Shown here piece after piece: positions 27,907-63,070 of a DNA stretch of 64,000 bases (position 1 is its first letter; every line of letters starts with the position of its first letter). Under the pieces are notes generated by a model. It ran no database searches. It was not told the origin of the DNA and was given only the letters and a program-made list of their open reading frames with translations. Source of the stretch: Leuctra nigra (Eukaryota > Arthropoda > Insecta > Plecoptera > Leuctridae); the NCBI GenBank assembly GCA_934045905.1, contig OW203771.1:4588001-4652000 (forward strand). The letters run 5' to 3'. Both the position numbers and the translations under genes were made by a program.

Positions 27907-28338
27907 GTAAGTAGAAAACTATTATTAACAAGGAATGTGTGGTTATTAGACTGAAGCCGCCATTTTTCAAATGAAAGTCACCGCCGCCGATAGTTGACTG
28001 ACAAACAGCCCGCTAATCTTACGAACTTGCTTTTGCCCTCAAAATGCATGTGCTGCCATCTGCTGGTTGTTTCGCTTTGCACATGCCCTCGTATTGAATT
28101 TGTGTAACTGATTTGTATAATATTCTAATATTATTATAAATTATACTAAAATATAATGTATTATAGAAATTCAATAATACAATTTTTCTTTGATCTGTCT
28201 CTATGAATCTATATTATGTTATGGACATGATATTGATATTCAAATGTGTGCTAAATTGTTGGCTTGCTTAGAGCTTCTAGACATTCTAACATTGAATGGA
28301 TGTTATAATACTTGTCCGTATTGCATTACAGTGTTGCC

Positions 28339-31300
28339 ATGCCGCCTCACAAGCAGCCTCTGAGTCTATCAGCCCTCTCCACAACAGCCGTGGAGCAACT
28401 AGTCATTACGTCACTACTGAACATGGAGGACATGACGTCACCATCTCTCCAGGAAGCCCTGAACAAAGTACAAGATGTCCTCGTCGACGGAGTTCTTCCA
28501 GCCATGTGGGACTCTCTGTACCAAGCTGTTCTAAAACATTCAAGAACTGAACAGAACAATGTCCACTCGATATTCATCCATGAGAATCTACGGAAATTCG
28601 CTCCAACGCGTCCCATCACTGTTGATATGATGTGTAAACTGAAGAATATCATGGAGTTGGATGTGTCTCGTGTGGAGAGTGATCCTAACCCGTGTGTCTT
28701 GATCGGTCAGGTGTTTCTTAAACTACAGACTGTGAAGCTGGGTGAGATATCAGTGCCTGAGAGTTACATGGAGTTGGCAGCATGCACTGGACTCCAGCAT
28801 GTCTCCTACACGGGGATCAGAAATAACATCGAGGGCTGTGGAGAGTTCACGGTGACCTCGGGGTACTTAGCGGTGAGTAGTAGGTGTTTCAGGTGAGACT
28901 GTGAAGCTGGGTGAGATATCAGTGCCTGAGAGTTACATGGAGTTGGCAGCATGCACTGGACTCCAGCATGTCTCCTACACGGGGATCAGAAATAACATCG
29001 AGGGCTGTGGAGAGTTCACGGTGACCTCGGGGTACTTAGCGGTGAGTAGTAGGTGTTTCAGGTGAGACTGTGAAGCTGGGTGAGATATCAGTGCCGGAGA
29101 GTTACATGGAGTTGGCAGCATGCACTGGACTCCAGCATGTCTCCTACACGGGGATCAGAAATAACATCGAGGGCTGTGGAGAGTTCACGGTGACCTCGGG
29201 GTACTTAGCGGTGAGTAGTAGGTGTTTCAGGTGAGACTTTGAGGCTGGGTGAGATATCAGTGCCTGAGAGTTACATGGAGTTGGCAGCATGCACTGGACT
29301 CCAGCATGTCTCCTACACGGGGATCAGAAATAACATCGAGGGCTGTGGAGAGTTCACGGTGACCTCGGGGTACTTAGCGGTGAGTAGTAGGTGTTTCAGG
29401 TGAGACTGTGAGGCTGGGTGAGATATCAGTGCCTGAGAGTTACATGGAGTTGGCAGCTTGCACTGGACTCCAGCATGTCTCCTACACGGGGATCAGAAAT
29501 AACATCGAGGGCTGTGGAGAGTTCACGGTGACCTCAGGGTACTTAGCGGTGAGTAGCAGGTGTTTCTTAATCTGCAGACTGTGAAGCTGGGTGAGATATC
29601 AGTGCCTGAGAGTTACATGGAGTTGACAGTATGCACTGGACTCCAGCATGTCTCCTACATGGGGATCAGAAGTAACATCGAGGGCTGTGGCGAGTTCACG
29701 GTGACCTCGGGGTACTTAGCGGTGAGTATTAGGTGTGTCAGGTGAGAGTGTGAGGCTGGGTGAGATATCAGTGTCTGAGAGTTACATGGAGTTGGCAGCA
29801 TGCACTGGACTCCAGCATGTCTCCTACACGGGGATCAGAAATAACATCGAGGGCTGTGGAGAGTTCACGGTGACCTCGGGGTACTTAGCGGTGAGTAGTA
29901 GGTGTTTCAGGTGAGACTGTGAGGCTGGGTGAGATATCAGTGCCGGAGAGTTACATGGAGTTGCATGCACTGGACTCCAGCATGTCTCCTACACGGGAAT
30001 CAGAAATAACATCGAGGGCTGTGGAGAGTTCACGGTGACCTCGGGGTACTTAGCGGTGAGTATTAGGTGTGTCAGGTGAGAGTGTGAGGCTGGGTGAGAT
30101 ATCAGTGTCTGAGAGTTACATGGAGTTGGCAGCATGCACTGGACTCCAGCATGTCTCCTACACGGGGATCAGAAATAACATCGAGGGCTGTGGAGAGTTC
30201 ACGGTGACCTCGGGGTACTTAGCGGTGAGTAGTAGGTGTTTCAGGTGAGACTGTGAGGCTGGGTGAGATATCAGTGCCTGAGAGTTACATGGAGTTGGCA
30301 GCTTGCACTGGACTCCAGCATGTCTCCTACACGGGGATCAGAAGTAACATCGAGGGCTGTGGCGAGTTCACGGTGACCTCGGGGTACTTAGCGGTGAGTA
30401 GTAGGTGTTTCAGGTGAGACTGTGAGGCTGGGTGAGATATCAGTGCCTGAGAGTTACATGGAGTTGGCAGCATGCACTGGACTCCAGCATGTCTCCTACA
30501 CGGGGATCAGAAATAACATCGAGAGCTGTGGAGAGTTCACGGTGACCTCGGGGTACTTAGCGGTGAGTAGTAGATGTTTCAGGTGAGAGAGGCTGGGTGA
30601 GATATCAGTGCCTGAGAGTTACATGGAGTTGGCAGCATGCACTGGACTCCAGCATGTCTCCTACACGGGGATCAGAAATAACATCGAGAGCTGTGGAGAG
30701 TTCACGGTGACCTCGGGGTACTTAGCGGTGAGCAAACACTCACATGTTCCGTCCACCATTTCGGTACAGTTGAACAGTATACTTTTATAGGTGACATATA
30801 GCATCTGGGAAAAATATGGTTCAAAACGTATAGAAATGGCCTTATTTGCTTCTAAATTTAAACATTTACTAGGGCGTCCGCTATCACACTCCCCTTTTCA
30901 TACGAAAATGTGCTGTCTCTTAAATATCGTACTAAACTATTATGGACAATTCGAAAATTCCAAGGTTTTTTGGATTGCAACAATTCAATTAGAATTAGAC
31001 AATCTTGGGGAGGGGTAGGGGGGCATATGATATAATAAAGAATGAAGTAAAAAAGGACTGTCTTGACGGAACAATTTGGCTAAGTGGTAACGCTCTGAAC
31101 TTGTATTCCGGAGGCCCGGGTTCGATTCCCGCGGCCGTCCTTCCTGACTGTTTTTTTTTCGTGGTATTCCCTCAGTCGACAGGCAAATGCTGGGAAGGTA
31201 CCCTACTAATAGGCCACGACCGCCTCCTTCCCACCTGCCATCCTTACCTACTCTTCACCATCATCTCCCAATCATCATCATAATCATTCCTCCGTCGCCA

Positions 31301-32258
31301 TTAGCCTCGCTGCAGAACAGTGCGACGTTAAGCCCCAGACACAAAATAATATGAGCACTCTTACACTGGTTTCTGTTGCCAGGCTGAACTGGCTCTGGAG
31401 CTATTTCCTCGCCTGGAGCACTACAGCTTCTACAGCATGGGCGAAGTCCTGCTTCATCTCAACACGACCAAGCCTCTTACCCTGCGCCACGTCCAAGAGG
31501 AGAACTACTCGATCGAGATGATGGACCGCATCATCGCGTTGTGTCCTCATCTACAACGCCTCGACATCGACAACTACTTCACGCGCACTGCAGACGACTG
31601 CGCATGTGCGTTGGGCGCTTTAGCCACAAGTCCGTTGCAGATACGTCACCTTGACATCACTCTCACGCACTTCGACGAAAACTTCAGACATTTCATCGAG
31701 AAAAAGGGAAAACATTTGGTGAAATTCACGTTAAAATGTCCACCGCTACCCGAACAGGCGGCACAGATTATTTCGAAATATAGTTTAAATTTGACACATT
31801 TGTCGGTTAGTTATTGGTTCAGTACACCGGATCGGGATAATACATTGACATTTCCTGAGGGATGTCAGTCATATTTGACATATCTAGAGAAGTTCTCATA
31901 CTCATCCAGCATTCCTAATATATCAGATCTTAAGTTGATCAAAATAATTTTACCCCGATATTCAAAACTCTCTGTATTAGACATGAATGTCCTTGAAGCC
32001 GACATCAACGTGTTCTTGATGGAGTTGATGACGTCAGTGGACATGAACGACCTTGAGGACTTAAAGGTCCGGGTTCGGGACTCGGCGATGTTCACTGACA
32101 AAGTGCTCCGGGAGATTTACACGCGTCTTCCCAGACTTCAGCGTCTTCTTGTTCATTGTCCGTTTGAGCAGAGTGTGGTGAGTTGTTTGAGTGAGATCAG
32201 AAGACAAGTTCGAGACAGGAATCTAAACTGGAGCGCGTCGGTCATTAATGAGGGATAA
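28339..32258 (+). CDS. Leucine-rich-repeat-like protein, two coding exons
   Basis: Exon A is 28339-28872 and exon B is 31383-32258. Donor GCG-GTGAGT and acceptor TTGCCAG are both phase 0. The product is about 469 residues. The ATG at 28339 follows a splice acceptor and has context gttgccATG. The N-terminal 150 residues are helical without a domain I can name (an F-box is not convincing). The rest has irregular leucine-rich repeats, clearest in exon B (LQRLDIDNYF, IRHLDITLTH, LEDLKVRV, LPRLQRLLVHC). No signal peptide or membrane segment, so a cytoplasmic adaptor role is plausible but inferred. The intron contains eleven further copies of the end of exon A with its donor. The stop codon is immediately followed by a family B repeat, so the 3' UTR is transposon-derived. 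Confidence 0.72.
28710..30733 (+). repeat. Tandem array: exon 3' edge plus splice donor, 12 copies
   Basis: Units of mostly 169 bp (some shorter by 3-8) begin in the coding phrase 'ctgtgaagctgggtgagatatc' and end TTAGCG-GTGAGTAGTAGGTGTTTCAG. The first copy is the genuine exon end; the other eleven are intronic. Every copy keeps an intact donor. Copies are nearly identical, with scattered changes (for example 'gaagc' versus 'gaggc', 'aaataac' versus 'agtaac'). The 9-base word AGGTGTTTC occurs both in the exon (28710) and just after the donor (28882), marking the probable duplication breakpoints. Confidence 0.9.
31070..31345 (+). mobile_element. tRNA-derived SINE (family E), fullest copy
   Basis: A-box-like TGGCTAAGTGGTAACGC, then the B box GGTTCGATTCC about 35 bases on, followed by the family body and AAGCCCCAGACA end. 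It is the only copy here with a good A box. It lies in the LRR-like gene's intron, just upstream of exon B. Confidence 0.78.
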
Positions 32259-34667: not shown

Positions 34668-35215
34668 TTTCGTTACAATCGGTCCAGCCGTTTTCGATAT
34701 ATGACGTCACTTCCGGTTTTAGCAATGGCGGCCGAAAATAATGTCGTCTTGAATTCATAATTATTACTCCTACACATTTCCAAAATTTGGTTGCAATCGG
34801 TACAGCCGTTTTTGATATATGACGTCACTTCCGGTTTTAACAATGGCGGCCGAAAATAATGTCGTCTTGAATTCATAATTATTAGTACAACACATTTCCA
34901 AAATTTGGTTGCAATCGGTACAGCCATTTTCGATATATGACGTCACTTCCGGTTTTAACAATGGCGGCCGAAAATAATGTCGTCTTGAATTCATAATTAT
35001 TAGTACAACACATTTCCAAAATTTGATTGCAATCGGTACAGCCATTTTCGATATTTGACGTCACTTCCGGTTTTAACAATGGCGGCCGAAAATAATGTCG
35101 TCTTGAATTCATAATTATTAGTCCAACACATTTCCAAACTTAGGTTGCAATCGGTACAACCGTTTACGATATATGACGTCACTTCCGGTTTTAAAAATGG
35201 CCGCCGAGAACACTG
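34668..35215 (+). repeat. 118-bp tandem repeat with CRE, ETS and YY1-like sites
   Basis: Five units each carry TGACGTCACTTCCGG followed by AA(C/A)AATGGC(G/C)GC and an AT-rich spacer. TGACGTCA is the CRE palindrome, ACTTCCGG an ETS core, and AAnATGGCGGC the YY1 consensus. Function is inferred from motif match only. Confidence 0.75.
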
Positions 35216-36189
35216 CAACCTTGAATTTATAATTATTTACAAAGTACGTTTACTTATATCTATTTTAAAGTATAATGTGGTGAATTTAGCGTCATTTAGC
35301 ATATTTATGACGTCATTTCCGGTATAGGTCATAAAATGTGTGACGTCATTTCCGGTTTCGATATTTGAATCATCAAATATTACTGATTACATAAAGTTGA
35401 CCGTCTAAATCGTTTAGCGCTGGTTTTGTTCTAATCTGTTTAGCCGTTTTTGAGACATGATGTCACTTCCGGTTTCAAAATGGCGGCTTCCGGTTGGTTT
35501 TATAACAAGTCAAATGAAATATCAAAAGTACAAACGTTACATAAATATCAAGACAATCGGATTAACAGTTGTTGCTGAAATGCAAATCGATGTATATTAA
35601 ATTTCATGACGTCATTTCCGGTTTATTTAAAATAATGTTCGGTCTTTTGATATTGATAATCCATATAGATGACCGTCTGAAACGATTGGCGCAAATTTCG
35701 TTCCGATCGGTCCAACCGTTGACGAAATATGACGTCACTTCCGGTTTCAAAATGGCGGCACAAAAAATTCATGGGGACAAGGTTAAATCAGACGCCAAAA
35801 GTGCACACGTGGTAAAAATGTGAGATCAATCGGTTCAGCCGTTTAGGCTGTGGCCTGTTTACCGGATTTTAGCTCCAGCCTACTACTACTAAGATTATTA
35901 TTATGAAAACCGCCCTAAAACACAGTTTTCACGGCCCTCTAGCGCGCAAAGGGCGTAACCTATTGTTCTTAAATTTAGTATATGTTGTAGGGTGGGCCAT
36001 AGCTCGAAATTAAGATATTTCGCAACAATGTGAGATTTCTCAATTTTAAGATCCAGTAGGCCGAAAATGCCACTTTGATGCTTACAGTAAAAGTGGGTTT
36101 GCTCCAGCCTTTATATGAGAGTGTGCGCGCGCCGTACGACTTGGCTGGCGTGGAGCGACCGCTCCACTAGATTTGTACGTATAATGTCA

Positions 36190-38130: not shown

Positions 38131-38890
38131 AATTTCTTGTCCCTGCATTATTCAAAAATCAATTCATCGATATCCAATAGTCAACAATAGAAGAGAATTT
38201 CCGCCGCAAACATTCTCTGTCCTTTTCACGTTGTCACGAAATGCAGCTTATTTTTATTCATTCTTAGAAGCAAAATTGAATTCAATGAGTCACAATGTCT
38301 CAGTACAAAAGCACCCAAAAACTTCAGTCGCTCGAACATCATGGCAGGGCAGGCAGTGAATCGAGTGAAGATTATTGTATTATGACGATAAAACAACATG
38401 AATTCGTCACAAATTCGAGAAGAATTCAAGAAGAGACGTATCTTTCCTCTCAGCAACCAGCTGCTGTACTTTGCCGGTAAATATTTCATAAGTTTGTAGG
38501 AGCAATATTGACCTCAATACACGTCAATACTAAAATATGAGAAGTGATTAGTTCAAATGTTGAAATTTGCGTAGTTTTGGGGATATAATTAATGTTGAAA
38601 TAATTTTAGTTAAATTCTTCATGTAAAATAACTTAATTTAACCAGTCAATGTTTTATATTTGAACAATATTTGTATTGCTCTTATGGGAATGTCATAAAA
38701 GTAGTACTAATATATAATGCATATCTTTTAAATTAGTTCAGCTTGGTTAAATTTCCTTGACGAAATTGTGTTCCTATTCTACATTCCTTTTAGTTTTTAG
38801 TACAATTCTCAACGTAGGAACATAGTTTAAATTGAGAGAAAATATTAAACTGACGTTTTTATACCACTTCCAAGGTTAAAGTATAGGAAA
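38131..38890. other. Intergenic stretch, no convincing feature
   Basis: It contains one short open frame (38295-38480) followed by a GTAAAT donor-like sequence. Its phase does not fit the odorant receptor exon and the product is unrecognised. Otherwise AT-rich with nothing seen. Confidence 0.3.
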
Positions 38891-40164
38891 CCCCATAAAA
38901 AACACTCCGTGTAAAAATACCAGCCAAGTCTCTTCAACTAAAAAAAATAGAAGAAATCTAAAAATTCAGCACTGAAAAGTAGTGATATCAAAAAATTGGC
39001 CAAGTCAAAACTTTTCAAAAAATACTTGGCGCATCATGCATATAAATAGTATAGAAGTAAATGAAATGTACTCATCTATACATGTCCTAAAAAAACGATG
39101 CGCCAAGTATTTTTTGAAAAGTTTTGACTTGGCCAATTTTTTGATATCACTACTTTTCAGTGCTGAATTTTTAGATTTCTTCTATTTTTTTTAGTTGAAG
39201 AGACTTGGCTGGTATTTTTACACGGAGTTTTTTTTATGGAGATATCACTCCTTTTTTCAGTTTATTCTTACAGCTTGTAACATTATATTGTGGCACCAAA
39301 GACTATTATTCCTTTAAAAAAATACGCCTTTGTGATTTGGTTGCTAAGAAAATTTTTGCTTGTTGCTATGTAATGCTATAAATAATATGCTATGAAGTAT
39401 AGCGAAAGTTTGGTTCCAATCGGTCCAGCCGTTCTCGAGTTATGGCATCACTTCCGGTTTTCAAAATGGCGGCTTGCGTCAGTGCCACCTAAAATATGTA
39501 TTTATAAATGTTATATAACATAAAAAATCTTCTGAATATATTGTTATAAAATATGATTTTAGTCTGATTTTTAATTTTTATGACATCATTTCCGGTTTCG
39601 GTAATAGTACATTTCTATTTAGACTATTGATATTTTATAAAGATGACAGTCCGAATCGTTTGGCGCTAGTTTCGTCCCGATCGGTCTATCCGTTTTTGAG
39701 ATATGACGTCACTTCCGGTTTCAAAATGGCGGCACAAAAAATTTGTAATGGCAAGGTATCATCAGACGCCAAAAGTGCACATGCGGTAAAAATTTCAGAT
39801 CGATCGGTTTAGCCGTTTAGGCTGTGGCCCTGTCAACAGTGTTTCCTGATATCTGAATGTGAATCATAATCAGATACCTTTTAATAGGGGTGTAATTTCA
39901 CTGTTTTCACGGCCTTCTAGCTCGCAAATGGCATAATCTGTTGTTACCCTATTTGGTATATGGGGTGGGGTGGGCCATAGCTCGAAATTAAGATATTTTG
40001 CAACAATGTGATATTTTCAGATTTTAAGATCCAGTAGGCCAAAAATGCTATGTTGTTGCTTACAGTAAATGGTCTGCTCCTTAGTTTATTAGGCAGTAAC
40101 GGTATTTTGAGTGAGTGTGAGTGTACTGTACGACTTGGCTGGGTGGAGCGACCGCTCCACTAGA
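38891..40164 (+). mobile_element. Family C element, copy 3 (shortest full copy)
   Basis: The inverted pair is 38891-39031 against 39088-39237 with a loop of about 55 bp. One perfect TGACGTCACTTCCGG (39704) and degenerate copies follow, and it ends in the hairpin GTGGAGCGACCGCTCCAC and CTAG. It ends about 270 bp upstream of the odorant receptor array. Confidence 0.7.
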
Positions 40165-40359
40165 TATTTGAAACTTCAACTGTGAATAATATCTCAGAAT
40201 TTAGTTCAGGTAGGTACCCCATCTAATGTTTCTATATTATTAACGAAGATACAAATAACGAACTTAACGTGGCTCAACCAATCAAACATAACAAAATATT
40301 AAATTTTTGAAATTACCATCATGATTTTTTTTTTCAACATTCCAAATATATTTAAGTAC

Positions 40360-40390
40360 CATGAAAACGCTCAGTGTAACGCGTTGATTA
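40360..40390 (+). repeat. Family B terminal fragment beside the receptor array
   Basis: GAAAACGCTCAGTGTAACGC followed by GTTGATTA matches the family B terminus. It lies about 50 bp before the first receptor exon copy. Confidence 0.5.
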
Positions 40391-40438
40391 GCTATTCTAT
40401 CAAATTGTTTTATTTAATAAATCCTCCTCTTCCGTCAG

Positions 40439-43400
40439 GTTTGTGGCGAGTCTCGGACGAGCAGCGGACATGGAGCTACTACATGCGTGCTTGGTTACCG
40501 CGCATTCAACTGCTGCGAGCCTGTTACTCTCTCTATCAATGTTACAATCCTCCTCTTCTGTCAGGTTTGTGGCGAGTCTCGGACGAGCAGCGGACATGGA
40601 GCTACTACCTACGTCACTACATCCCCCACATTCAAGTTCTGCGAGGCTGTTACTCTCTCAATCAATGTTACAATCCTCCTCTTCAATCAGGTTTGTGGCG
40701 AGTCTCGGACGAGCAGCGGACATGGAGCTACTACCTACGTCACTACATCCCCCACATTCAAGTTCTGCGAGGCTGTTACTCTCTCTATCAATGTTACAAT
40801 CCTCCTCTTCAATCAGGTTTGTGGCGAGTCTCGGACGAGCAGCGGACATGGAGCTACTACCTACGTCACTACATCCCCCACATTCAAGTTCTGCGAGGCT
40901 GTTACTCTCTCAATCAATGTTACAATCCTCCTCTTCAATCAGGTTTGTGGCGAGTCTCGGACGAGCAGCGGACATGGAGCTACTACCTACGTCACTACAT
41001 CCCCCACATTCAAGTTCTGCGAGGCTGTTACTCTCTCTATCAATGTTACAATCCTCCTCTTCTGTCAGGTTTGTGGCGAGTCTCGGACGAGCAGCGGACA
41101 TGGAGCTACTACCTTCGTCACTACATCCCCCACATTCAAGTTCTGCGAGGCTGTTACTCTCTCAATCAATGTTACAATCCTTCTCTTCTGTCAGGTTTGT
41201 GGCGAGTCTCGGACGAGCAGCGGACATGGAGCTACTACCTACGTCACTACATCCCCCACATTCAAGTTCTGCGAGGCTGTAACTCTCTCAATCAATGTTA
41301 CAATCCTTCTCTTCTGTCAGGTTTGTGGCGAGTCTCGGACGAGCAGCGGACATGGAGCTACTACCTACGTCACTACATCCCCCACATTCAAGTTCTGCGA
41401 GGCTGTTACTCTCTCAATCAAAGTTACAATCCTCCTCTTCAATCAGGTTTGTGGCGAGTCTCGGACGAGCAGCGGACATGGAGCTACTACCTACGTCACT
41501 ACATCCCCCACATTCAAGTTCTGCGAGGCTGTTACTCTCTCAATCAATGTTACAATCCTCCTCTTCAATCAGGTTTGTGGCGAGTCTCGGACGAGCAGCG
41601 GACATGGAGCTACTACCTACGTCACTACATCCCCCACATTCAAGTTCTGCGAGGCTGTTACTATCTCAATCAATGTGACAATCCTCCTCTTCTGTCAGGT
41701 TTGTGGCGAGTCTCGGACGAGCAGCGGACATGGAGCTACTACCTACGTCACTACATCCCCCACATTAAAGTTCTGCGAGGCTGTTACTCTCTCAATCAAT
41801 GTTACAATCCTTCTCTTCTGTCAGGTTTGTGGCGAGTCTCGGACGAGCAGCGGACATGGAGCTACTACCTACGTCACTACATCCCCCACATTCAAGTTCT
41901 GCGAGGCTGTTACTCTCTCAATCAATGTTACAATCCTCCTCTTCAATCAGGTTTGTGGCGAGTCTCGGACGAGCAGCGGACATGGAGCTACTACCTACAT
42001 CACTACATCCCCCACATTCAAGTTCTGCGAGGCTGTTACTCTCTCAATCAATGTTACAATCCTTCTCTTCTGTCAGGTTTGTGGCGAGTCTCGGACGAGC
42101 AGCGGACATGGAGCTACTACCTACGTCACTACATCCCCCACATTCAAGTTCTGCGAGGCTGTTACTCTCTCAATCAATGTTACAATCCTTCTCTTCTGTC
42201 AGGTTTGTGGCGAGTCTCGGACGAGCAGCGGACATGGAGCTACTACCTACGTCACTACATCCCCCACATTCAAGTTCTGCGAGGCTGTTACTCTCTCAAT
42301 CAATGTTACAATCCTTCTCTTCTGTCAGGTTTGTGGCGAGTCTCGGACGAGCAGCGGACATGGAGCTACTACCTACGTCACTACATCCCCCACATTCAAG
42401 TTCTGCGAGGCTGTTACTCTCTCAATCAATGTTACAATCCTCCTCTTCAATCAGGTTTGTGGCGAGTCTCGGACGAGCAGCGGACATGGAGCTACTACCT
42501 ACATCACTACATCCCCCACATTCAAGTTCTGCGAGGCTGTTACTCTCTCAATCAATGTTACAATCCTTCTCTTCTGTCAGGTTTGTGGCGAGTCTCGGAC
42601 GAGCAGCGGACATGGAGCTACTACCTACGTCACTACATCCCCCACATTCAAGTTCTGCGAGGCTGTTACTCTCTCAATCAATGTTACAATCCTTCTCTTC
42701 TGTCAGGTTTGTGGCGAGTCTCGGACGAGCAGCGGACATGAAGCTACTACCTACGTCACTACATCCCCCACATTCAAGTTCTGCGAGGCTGTTACTCTCT
42801 CAATCAATGTTACAATCCTTCTCTTCTGTCAGGTTTGTGGCGAGTCTCGGACGAGCAGCGGACATGGAGCTACTACCTACGTCACTACATCCCCCACATT
42901 CAAGTTCTGCGAGGCTGTTACTCTCTCAATCAACGTTACAATCCTCCTCTTCAATCAGGTTTGTGGCGAGTCTCGGACGAGCAGCGGACATGGAGCTACT
43001 ACCTACGTCACTACATCCCCCACATTCAAGTTCTGCGAGGCTGTTACTCTCTCTATCAATGTTACAATCCTCCTCTTCTGTCAGGTTTGTGGCGAGTCTC
43101 GGACGAGCAGCGGACATGGAGCTACTACCTACGTCACTACATCCCCCACATTCAAGTTCTGCGAGGCTGTTACTCTCTCAATCAATGTTACAATCCTTCT
43201 CTTCTGTCAGGTTTGTGGCGAGTCTCGGACGAGCAGCGGACATGGAGCTACTACCTACGTCACTACATCCCCCACATTCAAGTTCTGCGAGGCTGTAACT
43301 CTCTCAATCAATGTTACAATCCTTCTCTTCTGTCAGGTTTGTGGCGAGTCTCGGACGAGCAGCGGACATGGAGCTACTACCTACGTCACTACATCCCCCA

Positions 43401-45570
43401 CATTCAAGTTCTGCGAGGCTGTTACTCTCTCAATCAAAGTTACAATCCTCCTCTTCAATCAGGTTTGTGGCGAGTCTCGGACGAGCAGCGGACATGGAGC
43501 TACTACCTACGTCACTACATCCCCCACATTCAAGTTCTGCGAGGCTGTTACTCTCTCAATCAATGTTACAATCCTCCTCTTCTGTCAGGTTTGTGGCGAG
43601 TCTCGGACGAGCAGCGGACATGGAGCTACTACCTACGTCACTACATCCCCCACATTCAAGTTCTGCGAGGCTGTTACTCTCTCAATCAATGTTACAATCC
43701 TCCTCTTCAATCAGGTTTGTGGCGAGTCTCGGACGAGCAGCGGACATGGAGCTACTACGTACGTCACTACATCCCCCACATTCAAGTTCTGCGAGGCTGT
43801 TACTATCTCAATCAATGTGACAATCCTCCTCTTCTGTCAGGTTTGTGGCGAGTCTCGGACGAGCAGCGGACATGGAGCTACTACCTACGTCACTACATCC
43901 CCCACATTAAAGTTCTGCGAGGCTGTTACTCTCTCAATCAATGTTACAATCCTTCTCTTCTGTCAGGTTTGTGGCGAGTCTCGGACGAGCAGCGGACATG
44001 GAGCTACTACCTACGTCACTACATCCCCCACATTCAAGTTCTGCGAGGCTGTTACTCTCTCAATCAATGTTACAATCCTCCTCTTCAATCAGGTTTGTGG
44101 CGAGTCTCGGACGAGCAGCGGACATGGAGCTACTACCTACATCACTACATCCCCCACATTCAAGTTCTGCGAGGCTGTTACTCTCTCAATCAATGTTACA
44201 ATCCTTCTCTTCTGTCAGGTTTGTGGCGAGTCTCGGACGAGCAGCGGACATGGAGCTACTACCTACGTCACTACATCCCCCACATTCAAGTTCTGCGAGG
44301 TTGTTACTCTCTCAATCAATGTTACAATCCCTCTCTTCTGTCAGGTTTGTGGCGAGTCTCGGACGAGCAGCGGACATGGAGCTACTACCTACGTCACTAC
44401 ATCCCCCACATTCAAGTTCTGCGAGGCTGTTACTCTCTCAATCAATGTTACAATCCTCCTCTTCAATCAGGTTTGTGGCGAGTCTCGGACGAGCAGCGGA
44501 CATGGAGCTACTACCTACATCACTACATCCCCCACATTCAAGTTCTGCGAGGCTGTTACTCTCTCAATCAATGTTACAATCCTTCTCTTCTGTCAGGTTT
44601 GTGGCGAGTCTCGGACGAGCAGCGGACATGGAGCTACTACCTACGTCACTACATCCCCCACATTCAAGTTCTGCGAGGCTGTTACTCTCTCAATCAATGT
44701 TACAATCCTTCTCTTCTGTCAGGTTTGTGGCGAGTCTCGGACGAGCAGCGGACATGGAGCTACTACCTACGTCACTACATCCCCCACATTCAAGTTCTGC
44801 GAGGCTGTTACTCTCTCAATCAATGTTACAATCCTTCTCTTCTGTCAGGTTTGTGGCGAGTCTCGGACGAGCAGCGGACATGGAGCTACTACCTACGTCA
44901 CTACATCCCCCACATTCAAGTTCTGCGAGGCTGTTACTCTCTCAATCAATGTTACAATCCTCCTCTTTAATCAGGTTTGTGGCGAGTCTCGGACGAGCAG
45001 CGGACATGGAGCTACTCCCTACGTCACTACATCCCCCACATTCAAGTTCTGCGAGGCTGTTACTCTCTCAATCAATGTTACAATCCTTCTCTTCTGTCAG
45101 GTTTGTGGCGAGTCTCGGACGAGCAGCGGACATGGAGCTACTACCTACGTCACTACATCCCCCACATTCAAGTTCTGCGAGGCTGTTACTCTCTCAATCA
45201 ATGTTACAATCCTTCTCTTCTGTCAGGTTTGTGGCGAGTCTCGGACGAGCAGCGGACATGGAGCTACTACCTACGTCACTACATCCCCCACATTCAAGTT
45301 CTGCGAGGCTGTTACTCTCTCAATCAATGTTACAATCCTCCTCTTTAATCAGGTTTGTGGCGAGTCTCGGACGAGCAGCGGACATGGAGCTACTCCCTAC
45401 GTCACTACATCCCCCACATTCAAGTTCTGCGAGGCTGTTACTCTCTCAATCAATGTTACAATCCTTCTCTTCTGTCAGGTTTGTGGCGAGTCTCGGACGA
45501 GCAGCGGACATGGAGCTACTACCTACGTCACTACATCCCCCACATTCAAGTTCTGCGAGGCTCTTACTCT
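40439..45570 (+). repeat. Tandem array: splice acceptor plus exon 5' edge of an odorant receptor, 41 copies
   Basis: A strict 126-bp period runs from the copy starting at 40439 to the genuine exon at 45479 (40 intervals of 126 = 5040). Each unit holds 34 bp of intron end (pyrimidine tract, then CTGTCAG or CAATCAG) and 92 bp of exon. The first copy is the most diverged. Because 126 is divisible by three, all frames stay in register. The receptor frame has three stops (42739-42741, 44968-44970, 45346-45348), so only acceptors of the last two copies can give an uninterrupted product. Confidence 0.95.
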
Positions 45571-48500
45571 ATGGCTTTAGCTCTGATGGCCGCCTACACG
45601 GTCTATAACGACACCGAGGTCTTCACCGAAGTGCTCATGTATGCATTGGTCTACTCCATGCTGCTGTTCAAAGCGTGTAACTCGTTCGTTAACCGACAAA
45701 GGATTCAAGAGATCTTTCAGCTCATCGAAGACATAAGCTATTCGGTAACTGAAGACGAACTGCATTTAATCGAAGAGAAGAATGTTTTCATGGTGTTTCT
45801 GTTAACATACATTCCTGGAATTGTTTGTGGAGCTCTGCTCATTTGCTTCGCGTGTATGGCGCCCTCTGCATTTAGCACCCGCGTACTACCGTTCTGGTAA
45901 GTCGACATAATTTCAACAGTCAAAGATAAATGTAAAGAGTTGAATTAATCTAGTTGGTAAGGATTACAATTTTTACTTTTAAACGTAACATCTGGGTTTA
46001 TCAGAGCATTAAAAATCAATATTAGTGTAATACTAGAAAAATGCTAAGCGAGCACCGGTACGTGCAAATTCTCCCACCCAAATTCCACACCAAACGCACA
46101 GAAACATATTCATCTATATTTAATTGAAATAAGGTCCACTCAATCAGGGTATTCAAAATATCTTACCGGACAGCTAAATGAGAAACGCAGTGTAGGACAA
46201 ATGCATCGTTGAGTAGTTCTTTCGGCATTTACTTAGCCTACCTGAAATCGGGCACAGTGGGTTAGGCCAAAGATGAAAATATTTGTACATAATTTCTAAG
46301 TTAAAGTTGCAGTCAACCCTTTTTGATCTAATAAGTCAGTCCACAGAATGATAATTTTTTATTGAGCGAGCGAAGCGAGCGTCTCCTTTTGGCTCTTTTG
46401 GCACGGACCTCTGTTTTTTTTTTATTTTTTTTTCTGCTATTAACCGATACAAAGGTCGCACCGTTTCACCGACCGATCTGAAATTTTGCACACATGTTAA
46501 ACCAACCTTCTCTGTTTGCAGACTTTAATTTTTTTGAAATCTATTTATTGGTTAAAGTTTAAATAAATATCTCCTGATAGGCAGAAAAATTAAAACGGTC
46601 TTCCATAATTCTGATCAAACTAATTTTTTGCATTATCATTAAGACCAACATTGTCTCTTATTTTACAATATTTCATCCCAATCAGTTAAGAACGTATGAA
46701 CTTATTGACATTTTTAATATCTGTCAGTAATGAAGAATCGAAATGTTGTTTTCCAGTGCCAATTGAATTGAATATTATTTGCTATATTTACCAGGGTGCT
46801 TAGTTGCTATTTTCAAGTTTCGATGAAAAGCATATACTTTTATATTGATTGAGTGATCATATTTCAATTCAATATGGATGTATATGTTTTCTGTGCGTTG
46901 TGTACGCATTTCCGGTTCGAGAATTTGCACGTACCCGTGCTCGCTCATCAACGCGTTACACTGAGCGTTTTCCTATTTTAGTCAAACATACATAAGTTCA
47001 TATAAGGATAAAATGTGCCTGACTTTTCCTCCACTAGTACCTTGACAACACGCTCTGATTCCAGGCGCTGGCTGCCGTACGACTTGACAAACGCACCAGT
47101 GTTCGCGTTCACCTACGTCATGCTGGCAGCCTCGTCTGTGCTCGACACGTACCTCAATGCGATCTGGGACGGCTCGTGCTACGTGCCCATCGTCTACACG
47201 GCGCGCTTCTTCAGAATACTCGGGTTCGTATAATGTGGTGTATCCAGGGACGCACAATCCTGAACAGGCACGCACCCCTACCCTTTAGAAAGCCTATATA
47301 CTGGGGAAGAGAGTGGCAAAATGGGTGACTGTTTTCTATTGGTTGAAGAATTAACCAATGGTGTGGCCGCTTTAATGGGAGCCGCCATCTTGTGCTCAAA
47401 CAGTGGGCAAGTTAGAGAGCCTAGGGCAAGTAGCTGGCTGAGGCAGGATCTAGTTGACGACCTTGACAAGCGTCCATAACTTGAGTACAAGATGGCGCCT
47501 ACGAGTTGGCCACTCTCTTCCCCAGTATATAGGCTCTCTACTACCCTCTGATTCAATTCCCCTCCATATGTTCTTATACATTTATATGCCAGAATAAAAA
47601 GTATTAAAATCGCGTTGAAATGCACCAAATTGATGACTGAAGTTCAACAAATGACCCGCATTTCGCTGAGGGCCCTGCCCCAGACCCCCTTTCTCGTTGT
47701 AGACACTAGGTTCTCCAGCTCAAATTCTTTTACAATATTACTTCCTCCCCCTTTTGCAAATTTAGTTTCTACGGTCTTCTGAAGAATATGTAATTACTCA
47801 AGAAGGATTGATTTCCCTGCTCATTTTCAATCATCCATTGTGACCATGACGTATAGATCTATTTAAAACATGATTTTTTAGGTTGACTGGTAAATATGCA
47901 ATGTATACTTGATGAAAGAAATAAAATCGTTGAAAATATTAAATGACTGCTGTACTAGTTCATTATTAGTAATCAATCACCCTAGAGTGAGACAAGGAGA
48001 TTGCTTGGTCTGACTACTGATGATGCGATCTAACATATTTTCAGTAAATCCGATTATTCAAGCGATAATATTTTTTTATCGAGTTTACCCATATTCATTT
48101 TAAAGAATTTGAATCTTCAAAAGGAGATTACATTCGCTGTAATTAGTTTACAATGCAACTACAGCAGGTGATATGTTTAACAGATGAATAGTGGCAATTC
48201 TAGGTATCTTTATCATTAGTTCTTTCTAGGTAATGTTCTCCCAATCAACTGTTTTCATTTAACGGAGTATTGGCAACCGTACGCAAAGTTGATGTTTTTG
48301 ACTTATTTTCCAAATAGTGAGCGTTTGGAAAATCTACGGGCAACGGTGAAGAATAACGCCATTGAAGAAAGACGTGATTCTGAGCTCGAAGTGATGCAGA
48401 ATGAGGAAACCTCAGCGATGGATCGACGCTTCGGCGACGTCGTTGTTCAACCAGCTGGAGGGAATCCTCGGGGAGCGCGCGGGAACATTGCGAGGGAGAA

Positions 48501-48584
48501 GGAACTGGCAGGACTCGAGCAAGTCAACCGGGCCATGGAAGAGTATCTTAAGCAATGTGTCCAGCACCACGAGACTCTGTTACA
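45479..48584 (+). CDS. Odorant receptor (7tm_6 family), partial, three exons recognised
   Basis: Exons are 45479-45896, 47065-47223 and 48318-48584, joined in phases 2 and 2. The product begins just before TM1 (GLWRVSDEQRTW, then LRHYIPHIQVLRG). It runs through TM1 and TM2 (VFTEVLMYALVYSMLLFKACN), the NRQRIQEIF loop, TM3 (FMVFLLTYIPGIVCGALL), then PFWRWLPYDLTNAPVFAFTYVM and TM4. It ends in the intracellular loop with RILGERLENL and YLKQCVQHHETLL. These are hallmarks of insect odorant receptors, which form ligand-gated channels with Orco in sensory neuron membranes. The first exon with the start codon and the C-terminal exons (TM5-TM7) were not found. Upstream lies the 41-copy array of this exon's 5' edge. 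A long Gly/Arg/Glu-rich insert in the third exon is unusual. The gene may be incomplete or have very long introns. Confidence 0.85.
45897..47064 (+). other. Receptor intron containing family B repeats
   Basis: The intron starts GTAAGTCG and ends GATTCCAG. It contains a family B fragment (about 46031-46130) and a minus-oriented copy (46364-46976). Confidence 0.7.
46364..46976 (-). repeat. Family B repeat in the receptor intron
   Basis: TGAGCGAGCGAAGCGAGCG at one end, the CAACGCGTTACACTGAGCGTT hairpin region and TCCTAT at the other. The terminal CTAG has mutated to CTAT. Confidence 0.65.
47291..47535. repeat. TIR element of about 245 bp in the receptor intron
   Basis: AGCCTATATACTGGGGAAGA and about 7 further bases are repeated inverted at 47510-47535. 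The inner part is also partly complementary ('gccatcttgtgctcaa' against 'ttgagtacaagatggc'). A MITE. Confidence 0.7.
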
Positions 48585-50650: not shown

Positions 50651-53445
50651 GCTCATCCTGATAAATACAGGGAAACTGTATCGCTCCGACATAACAAGCA
50701 AGTCACCGAACAAGAGAGTATAGATGCAGAATCAACAGAGAAATCAGAAACATCAAGTGACACAGATAAACTTCACTCTGAACTTGACAAATGGATACAA
50801 ATCTTCATAGAACCTTGCACTGCAGATCAATTCTCGACTCAAGTGAAGGAGTTTGCTGAGTATCTCGTCACAGCCATTGTACTTCTTCCAGGACCAAAAA
50901 ATCCAGCTACACGGTATTACAACGCCAGGAAAAAAGGTACATTTAAAAGTAATGACAGACAATATAAGGACTCGACTAATCCTGAACGTAAGTCAAAGCG
51001 TGAAAGAGAGAAACGTAAGGAGGATTACCTGTATCAAACAGCGCAGTATCTTTTCTATAACCAAAGGAGAAAAGCTGTGAATCTGATTATTAACAGCAAG
51101 AAGCCCCAATGTCGGATTGAAAGCGCTATCTTGGAAGAGGAATTTCGAGGAAAATTTTCGACACCAAATGAACACAAGAGAGAACATTACGCGAGTAAAT
51201 TGACGGACGTCGAGAGGGACGACATAAATAACTCGTTCTCACTAACAATGTCAACATCCATCATCGAACAAGCTGTTAAGTCTATCCGAATGGATACAGC
51301 TCCAGGACCAGATCAAGTTATCATGAGAATAGTCAAGTCGGAAAGAGTGGTCAAAATTCTCTCTTTGATTGGATCCACGATGTTGAGAACAGGCTGGGTT
51401 TCTGCAAGCTTTCAAGAGGCAAGGACAGTATTGATTCATAAATCAGGTGATCCCAGTATTCCATCTAACTGGCGACCCATCTCAATATGTTCAGTACTAC
51501 GCCGTGTCATTGAAAGGGCGCTGGACAAGATCGTGCGCAGTTACACGTCTTTCAACGAACATCAACGAGGTTTTACCACTTCTCCGGGATCCTATATAAA
51601 TGTGTCAATCGTCAATGCTCTATTACAAAGGGCTCGATCGAAGAAAGATAACTTAACTCTGGTTTTCTTAGACATTACAAAAGCCTTTGACAATATTGGG
51701 CATGATCATCTAGCCGCCACAATACGTTCATCGCCTCTACCCATCAAGATACAAGACATAATCATCAATCTACAAGAAGGAAACTCTTCTCAAGTCGAAG
51801 CAAACAACCAGAAAACTAAACGCATCCCATTGCATCGAGGGGTTATGCAAGGTGCACCTTTGTCGCCCACGCTTTATAATCTGGCGACGGATCACATCTT
51901 GGACGAATTGTCTGAACCGGAGGTATCATCGCAGTATGGTTACAGGTTAGTGGACGAGCTCGACTGCAAATCCATCATGGGCTTTGCAGATGATCTGGTT
52001 GTGGTTGCAAAAGACGAAGAATCAGCTCGAGTACTCACAAACACTATTCGTCAGCGATTAGCAGAGCTTGGCCTGGAACTGAACAACAAGAAATCAATTG
52101 CAATTAATATCAAAAAAGGAGCCTTAAATGAATCAATAATTTCTCTGGATGATCATAATTCAGTTAGAGCAATTGGTCACCATGAAACCATAAGATATTT
52201 AGGAATCACCTTCAATTAAGCAATAATTTTTGACAGGTTCAAACTAATAAATGACTTAAGATCCAAATTAGAAGAACTCACTACATCACCATTGTTGAAG
52301 CCTCACCAAAAGTTACAGATTCTCACGCAATACATATTTCCGACTCTTGTATATCCACTTCAAAACGCCCCAGTCTGCAACTTACCAATATCATTCCTAG
52401 ACGATTTAGATAAAATAATAAAAAGCACTATCAAGGAAATCGTTTCATTGCCATTTGACACTCCTGACTCCATGCTCTACACGTCACATAAGTATAAAGG
52501 GTTAAATGTGTTCAGGGCGCGATGGGAGGCATTTATCCAGAAAATAAACATATGTAACGTCCTCGAGAAGAGCAGAAACGCTTACGTCCTGGAAACAAGA
52601 AACTTCACGCAGGAGAGAGAGAGCTCTGTCTCGAAAAGCTCGGACTAATCACTCAATCAGACAACGCTATTGACGCTACGCCAAGTCCAGTCAAGCCCTC
52701 GATCATTCGTGACCGCCTTCGAGAAGAGGAGTACACCATATGGTGTGCTCTGTCACAGAAAGGTCGAGGAGCTGTGCTCTATAGCGAATATACACCGGCT
52801 AATTCATGGGTCTCAAGAATGAATGGACTGTCAAGCTCGGAATGGCGTGATGGTATCAAGATGACCGCCAATGTTGCGCCGGTGAGAGTCCTCCATGGAA
52901 GAAGTCAGAACGGGAACCGGTGTCGCCGTTTCGGCACCGAGATCGAAACCCTCCCTCACGTTCTTGGCTTCTGTAAACATGGAGAACTGCTGCGCAACAC
53001 ACGCCACCACTCCGTCCGAGCAGCCATCGCCGGCGAGCTCAGGAAGAAAGGTTGGGAGGTCGCAGAAGAGGTCCATGGTGTGGCTGTCGACGAGAGCAAT
53101 CGGCGCATCGACATCATTGCCATTGATCCAGTCTCTCGTCGCGGCTACATCATGGACCCGACCATCCGCTTCGAATCCCATGCCGGCCAAAGTGAAGAGG
53201 TCGACATGGAGAAGAAGGCTATCTACAATCCAACGATCTCTTACTTCCTGGACAAGTACAACGCCACTTCGTTAGAAGTAATAGGACTGCTCGTCGGCTC
53301 AAGAGGCACTATTACTCGTTTTTTTAAGGATTTTTGTAGTAAATTTAAGTTTAGTAAATCATTCATTTCTCACATTAGTATATTTATATTATATCTCAAG
53401 GGCTCCATTTCCATTTTACGTAATCATCTTTATAGTCCATATTAG
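50651..53445 (+). pseudogene. R2-clade non-LTR retrotransposon ORF, decayed
   Basis: The frame is open from 50651, but the true 5' end is missing. It encodes an N-terminal basic region, a reverse transcriptase (APGPDQV, WRPIS, LVFLDITKAFD, MQGAPLSPTLYN, catalytic FADDLV) and a C-terminal restriction-like endonuclease region with a zinc-finger-like motif (ETLPHVLGFC) and RRIDIIAIDPVSRRGYIMDP. Together these place it in the R2 group, which inserts by target-primed reverse transcription. It is broken by a TAA at 52217-52219 and by a frame change in a GA-repeat near 52611-52622. In the zinc motif the second cysteine of the usual CRxCG is Phe. The frames are 50651-52648 (frame 2) and about 52620-53445 (frame 1). 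It is not a functional element. Confidence 0.82.
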
Positions 53446-55260: not shown

Positions 55261-55944
55261 TTAGTATTTCTGTTCATAGTTATTGTTAAACTCTTCAATT
55301 AAATAATCAGTACCCAGCTCTCTCAGGACTCTGATTTCGTATTCAGTACGCTTATGTACAAAATCACTTTGTAAACCGTTTACGTAACTGTTAACAAATA
55401 AATATTTATCTACATGTTTACTTTGTTTAACAAGAGTCTTTGCGATGGCAATTTGAACATGTTCGACCCAATTTGCAATGTTCTCATAAATGGATTCCCA
55501 ATGATCCATCATGAATGTTAGGAACGCTCGTTTCTTGAGTATTTCTTCACACGTCACTTTTCCACAATACACACCCATGCCAGGAATGCACTTTGATTCG
55601 ATGCACAAGATATTAGATCCATCGAACCTCCGCACACTGATGGTATAACCTGGTATTTGTTGGACGCCAGCCTCTTCAGGATTCATCGTGAAGACTCCAG
55701 GTGTCAAGTCAGCGATGGCCGAGACGAGATACTTCCACTGCAAAGTATCCAGGACAATTCCTGTTCCCGACGATGACATTAGCTTCATGTAGGGCTTGAA
55801 CTCGTTATTTGCATCGAGACCAGTCACAACCAACTTTGATTTAGATGAGTTGACGTAATTAAACGAACACAGTACACCCGAAACTTCTGTTGCAGTCGCC
55901 TTTTCGTTCGTATCCATAGGAATGCTCTTTTCTTCGCTACACAT
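55261..55944 (-). CDS. Polinton-associated protein of unknown function (227 aa)
   Basis: I do not recognise a domain. Mixed composition without signal peptide or membrane segment. A central part is rich in beta-type hydrophobics (SIADLTPG region, ISVRRFDGSNILCIESKC) and the C-terminal half looks helical (around residues 140-220). It is separated from the protease gene upstream by about 360 bp of AT-rich DNA, larger than other gaps in the block, so it may have its own promoter. It was assigned to the element because it shares strand, codon character and adjacency; a DNA-binding or accessory role is only a guess. Confidence 0.6.
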   Translation of the reverse strand: MCSEEKSIPMDTNEKATATEVSGVLCSFNYVNSSKSKLVVTGLDANNEFKPYMKLMSSSGTGIVLDTLQWKYLVSAIADLTPGVFTMNPEEAGVQQIPGYTISVRRFDGSNILCIESKCIPGMGVYCGKVTCEEILKKRAFLTFMMDHWESIYENIANWVEHVQIAIAKTLVKQSKHVDKYLFVNSYVNGLQSDFVHKRTEYEIRVLRELGTDYLIEEFNNNYEQKY

Positions 55945-56303
55945 GATGATGCAGTACTTGATGGCTCAAGATCTGTGTCACGACTGACCACTCTGTGCTC
56001 GTAGTGCTTGTGTTAACCGTAAATTTACTTTCTCTTTACGTCACAGTTCCTCTGTTTCATCAGGTTCAAAACATGTTTCAGCAGGTCCAAACTGTTTCAA
56101 GCTGGTCTGAATGTTTTCAAGTAACGGTTGTTTAAAAAATAGGATGGGTGTAGGTCAGGAACGTGTTGGTTGAAGAAATGAATTTCAAATGCGAAATTGA
56201 AGTAACAAACTATTTATTGTAATTATGAAAATACATCTTAATACCTGTAAAACAATAATTTTATATTGAACATAAATATAAAGTGATTTAACATACATTT
56301 ATC

Positions 56304-56843
56304 TTATGCTAGTACATAAGTGCGCAATGCACAGCAACACTGATTAACAGTACCGTCATTTACAGGATGTTTAATACAGTGACCAAATTTCTTAAAATAT
56401 TTATTTCTGGTTAGTCTATCATTTCTAAGTGGCGATCGTTCCACATACTTGGAAATAAAAAACGACATTGGAAACCCTCTTGCTCTTGTGGCTAAAAACA
56501 ATACACAATATTCTCCACACACTTCTGATTGAATACTTTGAAGAGTCACATCATTATAAGTCCATGAGGTACACTGTCGGTCAAGAAAATCAATGTGATG
56601 TTGAACAACTGGCTTCATTCCGTAGCTGCAGAAAAATTCACCGCGACCTCTTGAATCAATGTAAATGGCAATCCAATGTGATCCAGCAAGCCTCTGGACA
56701 TCTGTGTTTGAAACTAGGAGAGCTGGGAGTCCAACAGTTGATACAGGCAGGTTGTCGGCAGCAAATACACCCTTATAGTATGGTCTGCAGTGGATGTCGC
56801 TGATGAGTGCATGCTCGATGTCAGAGGTAAACATGATGTTCAA
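56304..56843 (-). CDS. PRO: Adenain-like cysteine protease (Polinton PRO)
   Basis: 179 residues. The C48/adenain pattern is visible: a catalytic His in GSHWIAIYID, the substrate-pocket Gln in TLQSIQSE and the nucleophile Cys in VCGEYC. The fold's third residue is normally an acid in a (F/Y)DSYG motif; here the motif reads FFCSYG, so the acid position is Cys. The family processes capsid precursors. The start codon overlaps the end of the upstream BIR-protein gene by 4 bp. If the acid is truly missing the enzyme may be weak or inactive; a sequencing difference cannot be excluded. Confidence 0.82.
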   Translation of the reverse strand: MNIMFTSDIEHALISDIHCRPYYKGVFAADNLPVSTVGLPALLVSNTDVQRLAGSHWIAIYIDSRGRGEFFCSYGMKPVVQHHIDFLDRQCTSWTYNDVTLQSIQSEVCGEYCVLFLATRARGFPMSFFISKYVERSPLRNDRLTRNKYFKKFGHCIKHPVNDGTVNQCCCALRTYVLA

Positions 56844-57607
56844 TCGACTTCGTCAAAGCCTTCGTTTTTGAATCCACAAAGACCGAATCCGCACACGTCA
56901 ATACCTCGCCGTTCTCTTGCTACGAATGAACACCTCGGACTCCACCTCACATGTTCGTCGCGTGGAATGTCACCTGCTACCCATTGATGCACGTCTATAT
57001 TGCAGAATGGACAATTGACCAAATCACTCTTCTGTGTGTAGTAATATCCCGCAGCTGCCAGGTCTTCGGGGGTCACGTGGATACTTTTAAAATTTTTGAA
57101 TGTTTTCAATCGTGCGGACGTCTTAGTGAGGTCGGTGATGTCAGAGTTCCCCTTCACCCAGCGTGCAAGTACAAAAACGTTTCGAATAGCACAGTGTCTG
57201 TTTGTACCTCCATGATTCATACATGTTGGAAGTGATGAAGGCGTTGCACAATGTGCAAGACTTTGAAGCTTACTACAACCCATAGACTCCAAGTCAATGA
57301 CATGTCGATGTATGATGCGCCTGATGAATTCGGCCTTTTCCTGACCTTTCACGAATAAAATCTTGTACCGACGAGTATGATCCATAATGATTGCGTTAAG
57401 AGCTTCGTACGGAACATCGCCGGACTTTGGGTTTAACCCATGATAATTTTCGGTAAGCCACACGTTTGTTTTATCCGCTTTGAAATTTACAGGAGATGTA
57501 AATAACCAATCATTGTACTTGAGTGATTTGTTATCGATAATGGCCAACTCCTTCACATACAAACAACCGTCAACCATGAACGCTTGAAAATCAATCGTGG
57601 CACTCAT
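56840..57607 (-). CDS. Polinton protein with a C-terminal BIR domain
   Basis: 255 residues. Residues about 165-230 form a canonical baculoviral IAP repeat: RLKTFKNF, AAAGYYYT, the zinc ligands in CPFC, then 16 residues to His in DEHVRW, then six residues to Cys in SPRC. The N-terminal 160 residues (IDFQAFMVD, VKELAIID, FVKGQEKAEFI, VIDLESMGC) are a region I have seen as a stand-alone protein in transposon contexts but cannot name; an RNase H-like or nuclease fold is possible. BIR proteins bind caspases and block apoptosis; some dsDNA insect viruses carry IAPs. Here the inference is a host-survival function. Ends overlapping PRO by 4 bp. Confidence 0.8.
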   Translation of the reverse strand: MSATIDFQAFMVDGCLYVKELAIIDNKSLKYNDWLFTSPVNFKADKTNVWLTENYHGLNPKSGDVPYEALNAIIMDHTRRYKILFVKGQEKAEFIRRIIHRHVIDLESMGCSKLQSLAHCATPSSLPTCMNHGGTNRHCAIRNVFVLARWVKGNSDITDLTKTSARLKTFKNFKSIHVTPEDLAAAGYYYTQKSDLVNCPFCNIDVHQWVAGDIPRDEHVRWSPRCSFVARERRGIDVCGFGLCGFKNEGFDEVD

Positions 57608-57638
57608 GACGACTGTCAGATCGGAACTGACTTGAAAC

Positions 57639-63038: not shown

Positions 63039-63070
63039 TTCATCAACTAATTGTCAACACTTGAACAGTG

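Follow-up and report, generated by a model that had tools for sequence, protein, structure and literature searches.

A candidate splice-transparent exon-edge repeat at odorant receptor loci of Leuctra nigra

The receptor gene and its array

The stretch analysed here, called the window throughout, comprises 64,000 bp of the genome of Leuctra nigra (Plecoptera, Leuctridae; assembly GCA_934045905.1, contig OW203771.1, positions 4,588,001 to 4,652,000) and carries an odorant receptor gene whose second exon is preceded by a long tandem array of copies of its own 5′ edge. The array had been noticed in an earlier reading of the letters alone (below, the sequence-only reading), which described it as a 41-fold amplification, in perfect register, of a 126-bp unit made of a splice acceptor and the adjoining exon edge. 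This description stands with one refinement. Tandem Repeats Finder (TRF) reports a single array at 40420-45570, with period 126, 40.9 copies and 97% matches, and the word CAGGTTTGTGGCGAG occurs 41 times, invariably spaced by 126 bp, first at 40436 and last at 45476; its final copy is the edge of the open receptor exon 2 itself, so that the array proper consists of 40 copies plus this real edge. The units lie head-to-tail, and CAG/GT (a slash marks the splice junction) precedes each copy in the window (41/41). Their division into an intronic part of 34 bp and an exonic part of 92 bp, also claimed earlier, agrees with a comparison across 35 loci, in which per-base identity between loci is high up to exon base 91, where the repeat unit ends, and then falls. 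The further claim that every copy keeps both its AG and its pyrimidine tract is right for the AG, in all 41 copies, and wrong for the tract, which is broken in some of them by TTCAATCAG or TTTAATCAG in place of TTCTGTCAG.

By its domain content the host gene is an insect odorant receptor of the 7tm_6 type, as had been supposed: exons 2-4, joined, match Pfam 7tm_6 (PF02949) with E = 2.3e-13 and 50.3 bits, against a curated cut-off of 25.8. A homology search of a large protein collection gave no match at E <= 1, and a sequence search of solved structures gave chance-level matches only. Upstream of the array, a 79-base exon 1 of the type M[ND]...I...(R/K)...L(Y/F)..G is found at 15 of 39 loci, the window included, the available upstream sequence being short at many of the others. 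Its splice phase matches that of exon 2 (G/GT TTG TGG) and exons 1-4 are open throughout, which places the array within a predicted intron 1 (Table 1). Exons 5-7 are present in paralogs and, joined from different receptors, match 7tm_6 with E = 7.8e-20.

Inside the array, 18 different sequences make up the 40 whole units. Groups of as many as four units reappear as blocks, and the longest stretch repeated exactly measures 636 bp, its two occurrences lying about 2.5 kb apart. Such an array is no trivial stutter of a single read, and its recurring blocks and long repeat form the pattern that unequal exchange would leave. Although long tandem arrays are prone to misassembly, an assembly artefact is therefore hardly credible, given this block structure, an assembly of 144 contigs for 536 Mb, and a unit family found at about 40 loci with differing array lengths and private variants. 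The copies are also not all of one kind, since copies 2-40 and the exon edge of the window share a private type, LRHYIPHIQVLRG, unlike copy 1. Nor did array copies, when checked for it, become less similar with distance from the exon; the exon-proximal copy is, if anything, slightly less edge-like (0.911 against about 0.94).

Recurrence of the unit and likeness of exon edges

The body of the window exon 2 retrieved 41 paralogous exons from the genome (536 Mb, 144 contigs) at E <= 1e-3, and 35 of these have at least one extra upstream copy, whole or partial, including L036, whose unit is private to it, and L059, where the second copy is decayed. No upstream copy other than sub-threshold fragments was found at the remaining six (L020, L027, L029, L056, L057 and L058). 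DNA similarity to the unit added six further array loci among the matches listed. The 126-bp unit thus recurs at about 40 receptor loci in register with the edge of exon 2, with anything from one extra copy, sometimes partial, to 40, and it is spread over seven large contigs (C1, C5, C6, C7, C8, C9, C10) and two small ones (C91, C141), the private unit of L036 being on C4. Among the matches listed, 37 of the 39 arrays examined run in register into an open receptor exon; of the other two, that of L049 is seen in part and that of L047 is truncated without a receptor. The latter is an orphan array that stops partway through the exon edge, and the stretch examined contains no receptor exon after it. 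Two loci were omitted from the statistics despite carrying the repeat, namely L059 and C6:18070945 (27 copies including the edge).

Between these loci, the part of exon 2 covered by the unit is more alike than the rest of the exon. Over the first 30 residues of exon 2, amino acid identity has a median of 0.80, compared with 0.27 over the following 108, and in all 666 pairs among 37 loci the edge is more alike than the body. The same holds at silent positions: between 36 loci, four-fold degenerate sites are identical in 5385/6870 comparisons at the edge (0.78) and in 2065/6049 in the body (0.34), where chance gives 0.25. The figures barely change for the 32 loci found through the receptor body rather than through the repeat (edge 4088/5343, or 0.77; body 1670/4871, or 0.34), and at 15 common loci exon 1 scores 124/411 (0.30) against 810/1090 (0.74) for the edge. 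Silent sites in exon 1 and in the body of exon 2 are saturated or nearly so, and the likeness of the edges therefore needs more than shared descent. Edge identity within contigs (0.903, 155 pairs) is slightly above that between contigs (0.866, 440 pairs). Five receptors without arrays (L020, L027, L029, L057, L058) served as controls, and their edges are only slightly more alike than their bodies (means of about 0.45 and 0.38, 10 pairs); in L036, with its private array, the edge has diverged from those of other loci like any body (92/264, or 0.35). Edges and arrays thus appear to be homogenised together between loci, a likeness that exchange between them would explain, the mechanism of that exchange being our inference.

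The same silent-site identity could in principle come from selection on the DNA or RNA of the edge itself, for instance on splicing enhancers, with no exchange between loci. Such selection is rather unlikely as the main cause, because intron tails and array copies show the same identity as the coding edge, because that identity is absent from the five array-less receptors and from L036, and because in the window the private type is found in 39 array copies and in the exon alike. In its favour are L056, which has a family-type edge and no array, and exon 6. This exon occurs with 91-100% DNA identity at at least 40 genomic places, many of them downstream of the listed receptors and some at sites that the exon 2 search had not picked up. 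Its four-fold sites are identical in 2085/2158 comparisons (15 rows, representing 14 distinct loci), and the limits of the identity lie near the exon ends, as selection on the exon predicts. In one receptor pair, four-fold identity is 24/24 in exon 6, 1/7 in exon 3 and 2/6 in exon 5. An array at the donor edge of exon 6 has at least two full copies at 4 of the 14 loci and a partial second copy at three more. Homogenisation in this receptor family is therefore wider than the exon 2 arrays, and the likeness of exon 6 may be due to selection on its sequence or to conversion through cDNA. The near-identity of exon 6 was noted at L069-L080, L043, L064, L067 and L068, the other exons compared having diverged.

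Splice junctions and the fate of the array

The feature on which our interpretation turns is the junction between units. AG/GT is present at 283/294 array junctions and 36/38 exon junctions, 267/294 have a CAG/GTTTGT-like site with 7 of 9 U1 consensus positions matched, and 248 of the 265 units of exactly 126 bp begin with GT and end with AG. These junctions are predicted to act as both acceptor and donor. Since the units begin with GT and end with AG, removal of any number of them would leave an identical message, and it would be immaterial which acceptor is used first, the removal of the remaining units restoring the same exon junction. The sequence-only reading had noted three stops in the receptor frame, and they are indeed there, in copies 19, 36 and 39, so that only the last two acceptors of the window yield an open receptor frame; use of any other upstream acceptor would spoil the receptor in a message that retained the units, but as each unit is itself a GT...AG stretch, such use need not be fatal.

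We therefore propose, as the probable interpretation of these sequences, that the array in predicted intron 1 is a dispersed splice-transparent exon-edge repeat, expanded and homogenised by exchange between loci. Exon 1 would be joined to the last acceptor, either at once or unit by unit, and the spliceosome would likely excise any number of units, always arriving at the same receptor message. Copy number would then be nearly invisible to selection on the receptor. Unequal exchange within arrays, together with gene conversion between loci, would expand the array, and the same events would overwrite the first 30 codons of exon 2.

Several characters of the arrays bear on whether the copies are translated. 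After units more than 12 sites from the consensus of their own array were dropped, 218 distinct variants were counted within arrays, distributed over the three codon positions as 62:77:79, of which 65 are synonymous, 139 non-synonymous and 14 stops (expected fractions 0.25, 0.67 and 0.08; ratio 0.78). At the real exon edges, 128 of 257 differences fall at third positions and 111 are synonymous, with a ratio of 0.44 (0.56 for the 97 distinct variants). The contrast between edges and array copies has P = 0.003 on all differences, a count in which shared descent enters repeatedly, but loses significance when distinct variants are counted (third positions, P = 0.10; synonymous changes, P = 0.24), so that it supports untranslated copies and is no proof of them. 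Unit lengths tell a similar story: among 31 length variants, distinct by locus and length, 11 are multiples of three, as expected by chance, and 20 shift the frame. The near-neutral codon pattern, the stops and the frameshifting lengths make the array copies look untranslated. The opposite possibility, that the array is translated into receptors with a repeated 42-residue N-terminal module, draws on the unit length being a multiple of three, on the 11 of 31 arrays whose whole copies are open throughout in the receptor frame, and on the same lack of a significant codon contrast. It is nevertheless very unlikely in view of the stops, the even variation over codon positions and the frameshifts, and of the 20 of 31 arrays that are somewhere interrupted or out of frame in the receptor frame; by these sequence characters, the units do not encode a retained protein module.

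A different role was suggested by the sequence-only reading, according to which the array acts as a decoy or a splicing dial, its competing acceptors lowering productive splicing and so setting receptor expression. Two observations fit such a role: AG alone is kept in 231/233 units of the larger arrays (P = 0.027 against base-matched sites), and in 11 of the 31 loci that have a full upstream copy, splicing to the next-to-last acceptor would disrupt the frame. This suggestion has not fared well, and we regard it as unlikely. Variants are spread about evenly over codon positions, a comparison with base-matched sites gives no significant excess conservation for the complete AG/GT in the arrays (distinct variants, P = 0.30; all differences, P = 0.10), paralogs vary from one to 40 extra copies, and a decoy effect would be weakened by units that could be spliced out as GT...AG stretches. 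Selective constraint on the splice signals of the array was considered in its own right and set aside, hinted at as it was by AG alone and by AGGT ranking 5th of 126 four-mers, the base-matched test giving it no support.

Splice transparency has its own difficulties. The conservation tests that speak against a decoy tell against it as well, for the presumed branch region, like AG/GT, shows no significant excess conservation over base-matched sites in the arrays, and variation in the pyrimidine tract exceeds expectation. There is thus no sign that the units must stay removable, and the arrays are better read as tolerated than as required. The lack of a significant codon contrast on distinct variants also counts against the proposal, and so does the junction itself: GTTTGT is not strong as a donor, YTNAY branch motifs lie 15-45 nt before the AG in just 13/265 units, and four of the seven edge arrays found in this work (see below) have no AG/GT at the exon junction. 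As to exchange, codons 31-42, just beyond the unit, have a four-fold identity of 120/240 (0.50, 15 loci), above the mean of the body; the family-type edge of L056, which stands outside the five controls, occurs without an array; and exon 6 is homogenised whole, with a donor-side array that is small or absent at most loci seen. Finally, the window receptor gene may be truncated at its 3′ end. A search for its exons 5-7 through the remainder of the window and the following 8 kb found none of them, and of the 40 exon 6 places listed in the genome none is near it.

Edge arrays elsewhere, precedents and significance

Arrays at exon edges are not confined to the 126-bp unit. The divergent receptor L036 has a 144-bp unit in six copies, including the edge, and the genome search found it at no other place. 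A receptor on contig C141, whose exon 2 (at 21 kb) and exon 6 (at 32 kb) we treat as parts of one gene, has arrays at three further exons (Table 1), located at L079 1-733 and 2772-3164, L083 and L084 (C141:30070-36439). A trypsin-like gene beside receptor L023, so labelled from a weak Pfam match below the cut-off, carries a 116-bp acceptor array of 3.3 copies (L023 2772-3153), found at that locus alone; in L023, a 48-bp repeat also lies inside receptor exon 3, at 580-819. Within the window, a gene with open reading frames (ORFs) at 28309-28896 and 31350-32258 has a donor-edge array of 169-bp units, for which the genome gave two weak single matches only. Its identification as an F-box or leucine-rich-repeat gene was dropped, as Pfam assigns it no family. 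Most of its units being 169 bp, which is no multiple of three, the first donor, adjoining the exon body, would have to be the useful one, and this array would then be the mirror image of the receptor acceptor case. Seven edge arrays are thus on record (main exon 2, L036, exon 5, exon 6, exon 7, the trypsin-like gene and the 169-bp gene), AG/GT standing at the exon junction in the first two and in exon 7. Other tandem arrays in the examined loci also occur away from known exon edges.

Table 1. Positions of the features discussed, in window coordinates, and arrays of the C141 receptor
Feature	Position	Strand	Description	Basis
Tandem array	40420..45478	+	intron tail, then 40 whole 126-bp units, each GTTTGT...CAG	TRF, 41 junction words, 18 unit sequences
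Copy 1	40439..40564	+	near the family-wide type MRAWLPRIQLLRA	unit alignment against paralog edges
Predicted exon 1	38398..38476	+	MNSSQIREEFKKRRIFPLSNQLLYFAG, 79 bases, ends one base into a Gly codon before gtaaat	
Predicted intron 1	38477..45478	+	holds the array; from the donor of predicted exon 1 to the last acceptor	
Receptor exon 2	45479..45896	+	first 91-92 bases are the 41st unit copy; then donor gtaagt	
Predicted exon 3	47065..47223	+	weak donor GG/gttcgt; similar exon 3 in paralogs	
Predicted exon 4	48318..48584	+	52% identical to the closest paralog over 100 aligned positions	
Donor-edge array	28727..30732	+	169-bp unit, 12 donor copies; exon 3′ edge and donor, on the intron side	TRF, sequence
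C141 receptor, exon 5 acceptor array			119-120 bp unit, 14 copies	
C141 receptor, exon 6 donor array			38-bp unit, 3 copies	
C141 receptor, exon-7-type acceptor array			52-bp unit, at least 52 copies, to near the end of the stretch examined, which does not reach the real exon 7	

The rest of the window contains what we take to be mobile elements: a Ty3/Gypsy-like retrotransposon presumably accounts for the long ORFs at 13590-18160, and reverse-transcriptase-like ORFs downstream of receptor exon 4, at 50651-53445, are assumed to belong to a non-LTR (long terminal repeat) element. On the minus strand, at 55261-63053, lie ORFs for a putative ATPase, a putative integrase, capsid-like and protease-like proteins and one with a BIR-like stretch, a set that in our judgement resembles a Polinton/Maverick element. 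A 118-bp repeat of 4.8 copies is found at 34668-35237, amid recurring TGACGTCACTTCCGG motifs.

The sequence-only reading knew of no described mechanism that would keep so many copies at an exon-intron boundary. That statement holds in part only, as human UBC offers a precedent: tandem dual-specific AGGT splice sites delimit its ubiquitin units, and their expansion is argued, in the excerpt consulted, to be less deleterious since extra units can be spliced out (PMC10809524). As in the UBC excerpt, the receptor units are joined at AG/GT and the unit length is that of a removable intron; the UBC units, however, are coding and retained in variable number (PMC10809524), whereas those of the receptors, each part intron end and part exon edge, show no sign of translation and form predicted intronic arrays at about 40 dispersed loci. 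A second precedent lies in human duplicated genes, where internal tandem repeats at exon-intron boundaries are described and 27 intron modifications reported (PMC2812944, from excerpts). These share with the receptors a setting in recently duplicated families and a similar unit size (62-126 bp in the longer intron class), but the account consulted mentions neither long arrays dispersed as a family nor homogenised edges (PMC2812944). Published duplications of AG/GY sites are likewise comparable, as far as the excerpt goes, in that the sequence between two copies could become an intron of the size of the duplication; they are single duplications, whereas the receptor arrays lengthen an intron predicted to have existed before. 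A dispersed splice-transparent exon-edge repeat would thus be partly precedented by UBC and the human boundary repeats. Among the papers listed from the open-licence literature searched, none dealt with exon-edge arrays in odorant receptors.

Satellites of euchromatin resemble the receptor arrays in their concerted evolution. Drosophila 1.688 and Tribolium TCAST, according to the excerpts consulted, likewise form tandem arrays of one family scattered in euchromatin (PMC7642928, PMC3411249). The receptor unit has the characters of a dispersed satellite, being tandem, head-to-tail, present at many loci and evolving in concert; unlike 1.688 and TCAST, its arrays end, at 37 of 39 loci, in a host coding exon in register with the splice site, and among the matches listed it is not independent of host exons. 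Recursive splicing relies on an acceptor and a donor juxtaposed inside an intron, and the receptor junctions are alike in this juxtaposition. They differ in that as many as 40 almost identical sites follow one another at intervals of only 126 nt and in that their donor, GTTTGT, with 7 of 9 U1 matches, is weaker, and any recursive use of them is a prediction; recursive splicing at AG/GT sites is mentioned in the UBC excerpt (PMC10809524). Arrays of mutually exclusive exons, in which every unit is an entire exon with a donor and a sequence of its own, differ in turn, the receptor units being near-identical partial exons, with donor strength scored at the unit junction only.

It is hard not to go one step further and ask whether a recurrent process makes self-erasing repeats out of splice junctions, the arrays serving as exchange hubs that synchronise the coding edges of scattered receptors, in effect a selfish exon-edge repeat. 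This we put forward tentatively, as a possibility that we would not call probable. If our interpretation of the array is right, repeats can grow inside genes without visible cost, and their growth would be tied to coding homogenisation, by which part of each receptor is kept alike and the rest diverges. Exon edges may then recurrently seed tandem arrays within one genome, and the roughly 40 receptor loci, each with between one and 40 additional acceptors in front of the same kind of exon, would serve as natural replicates for studying how a spliceosome chooses among identical sites.

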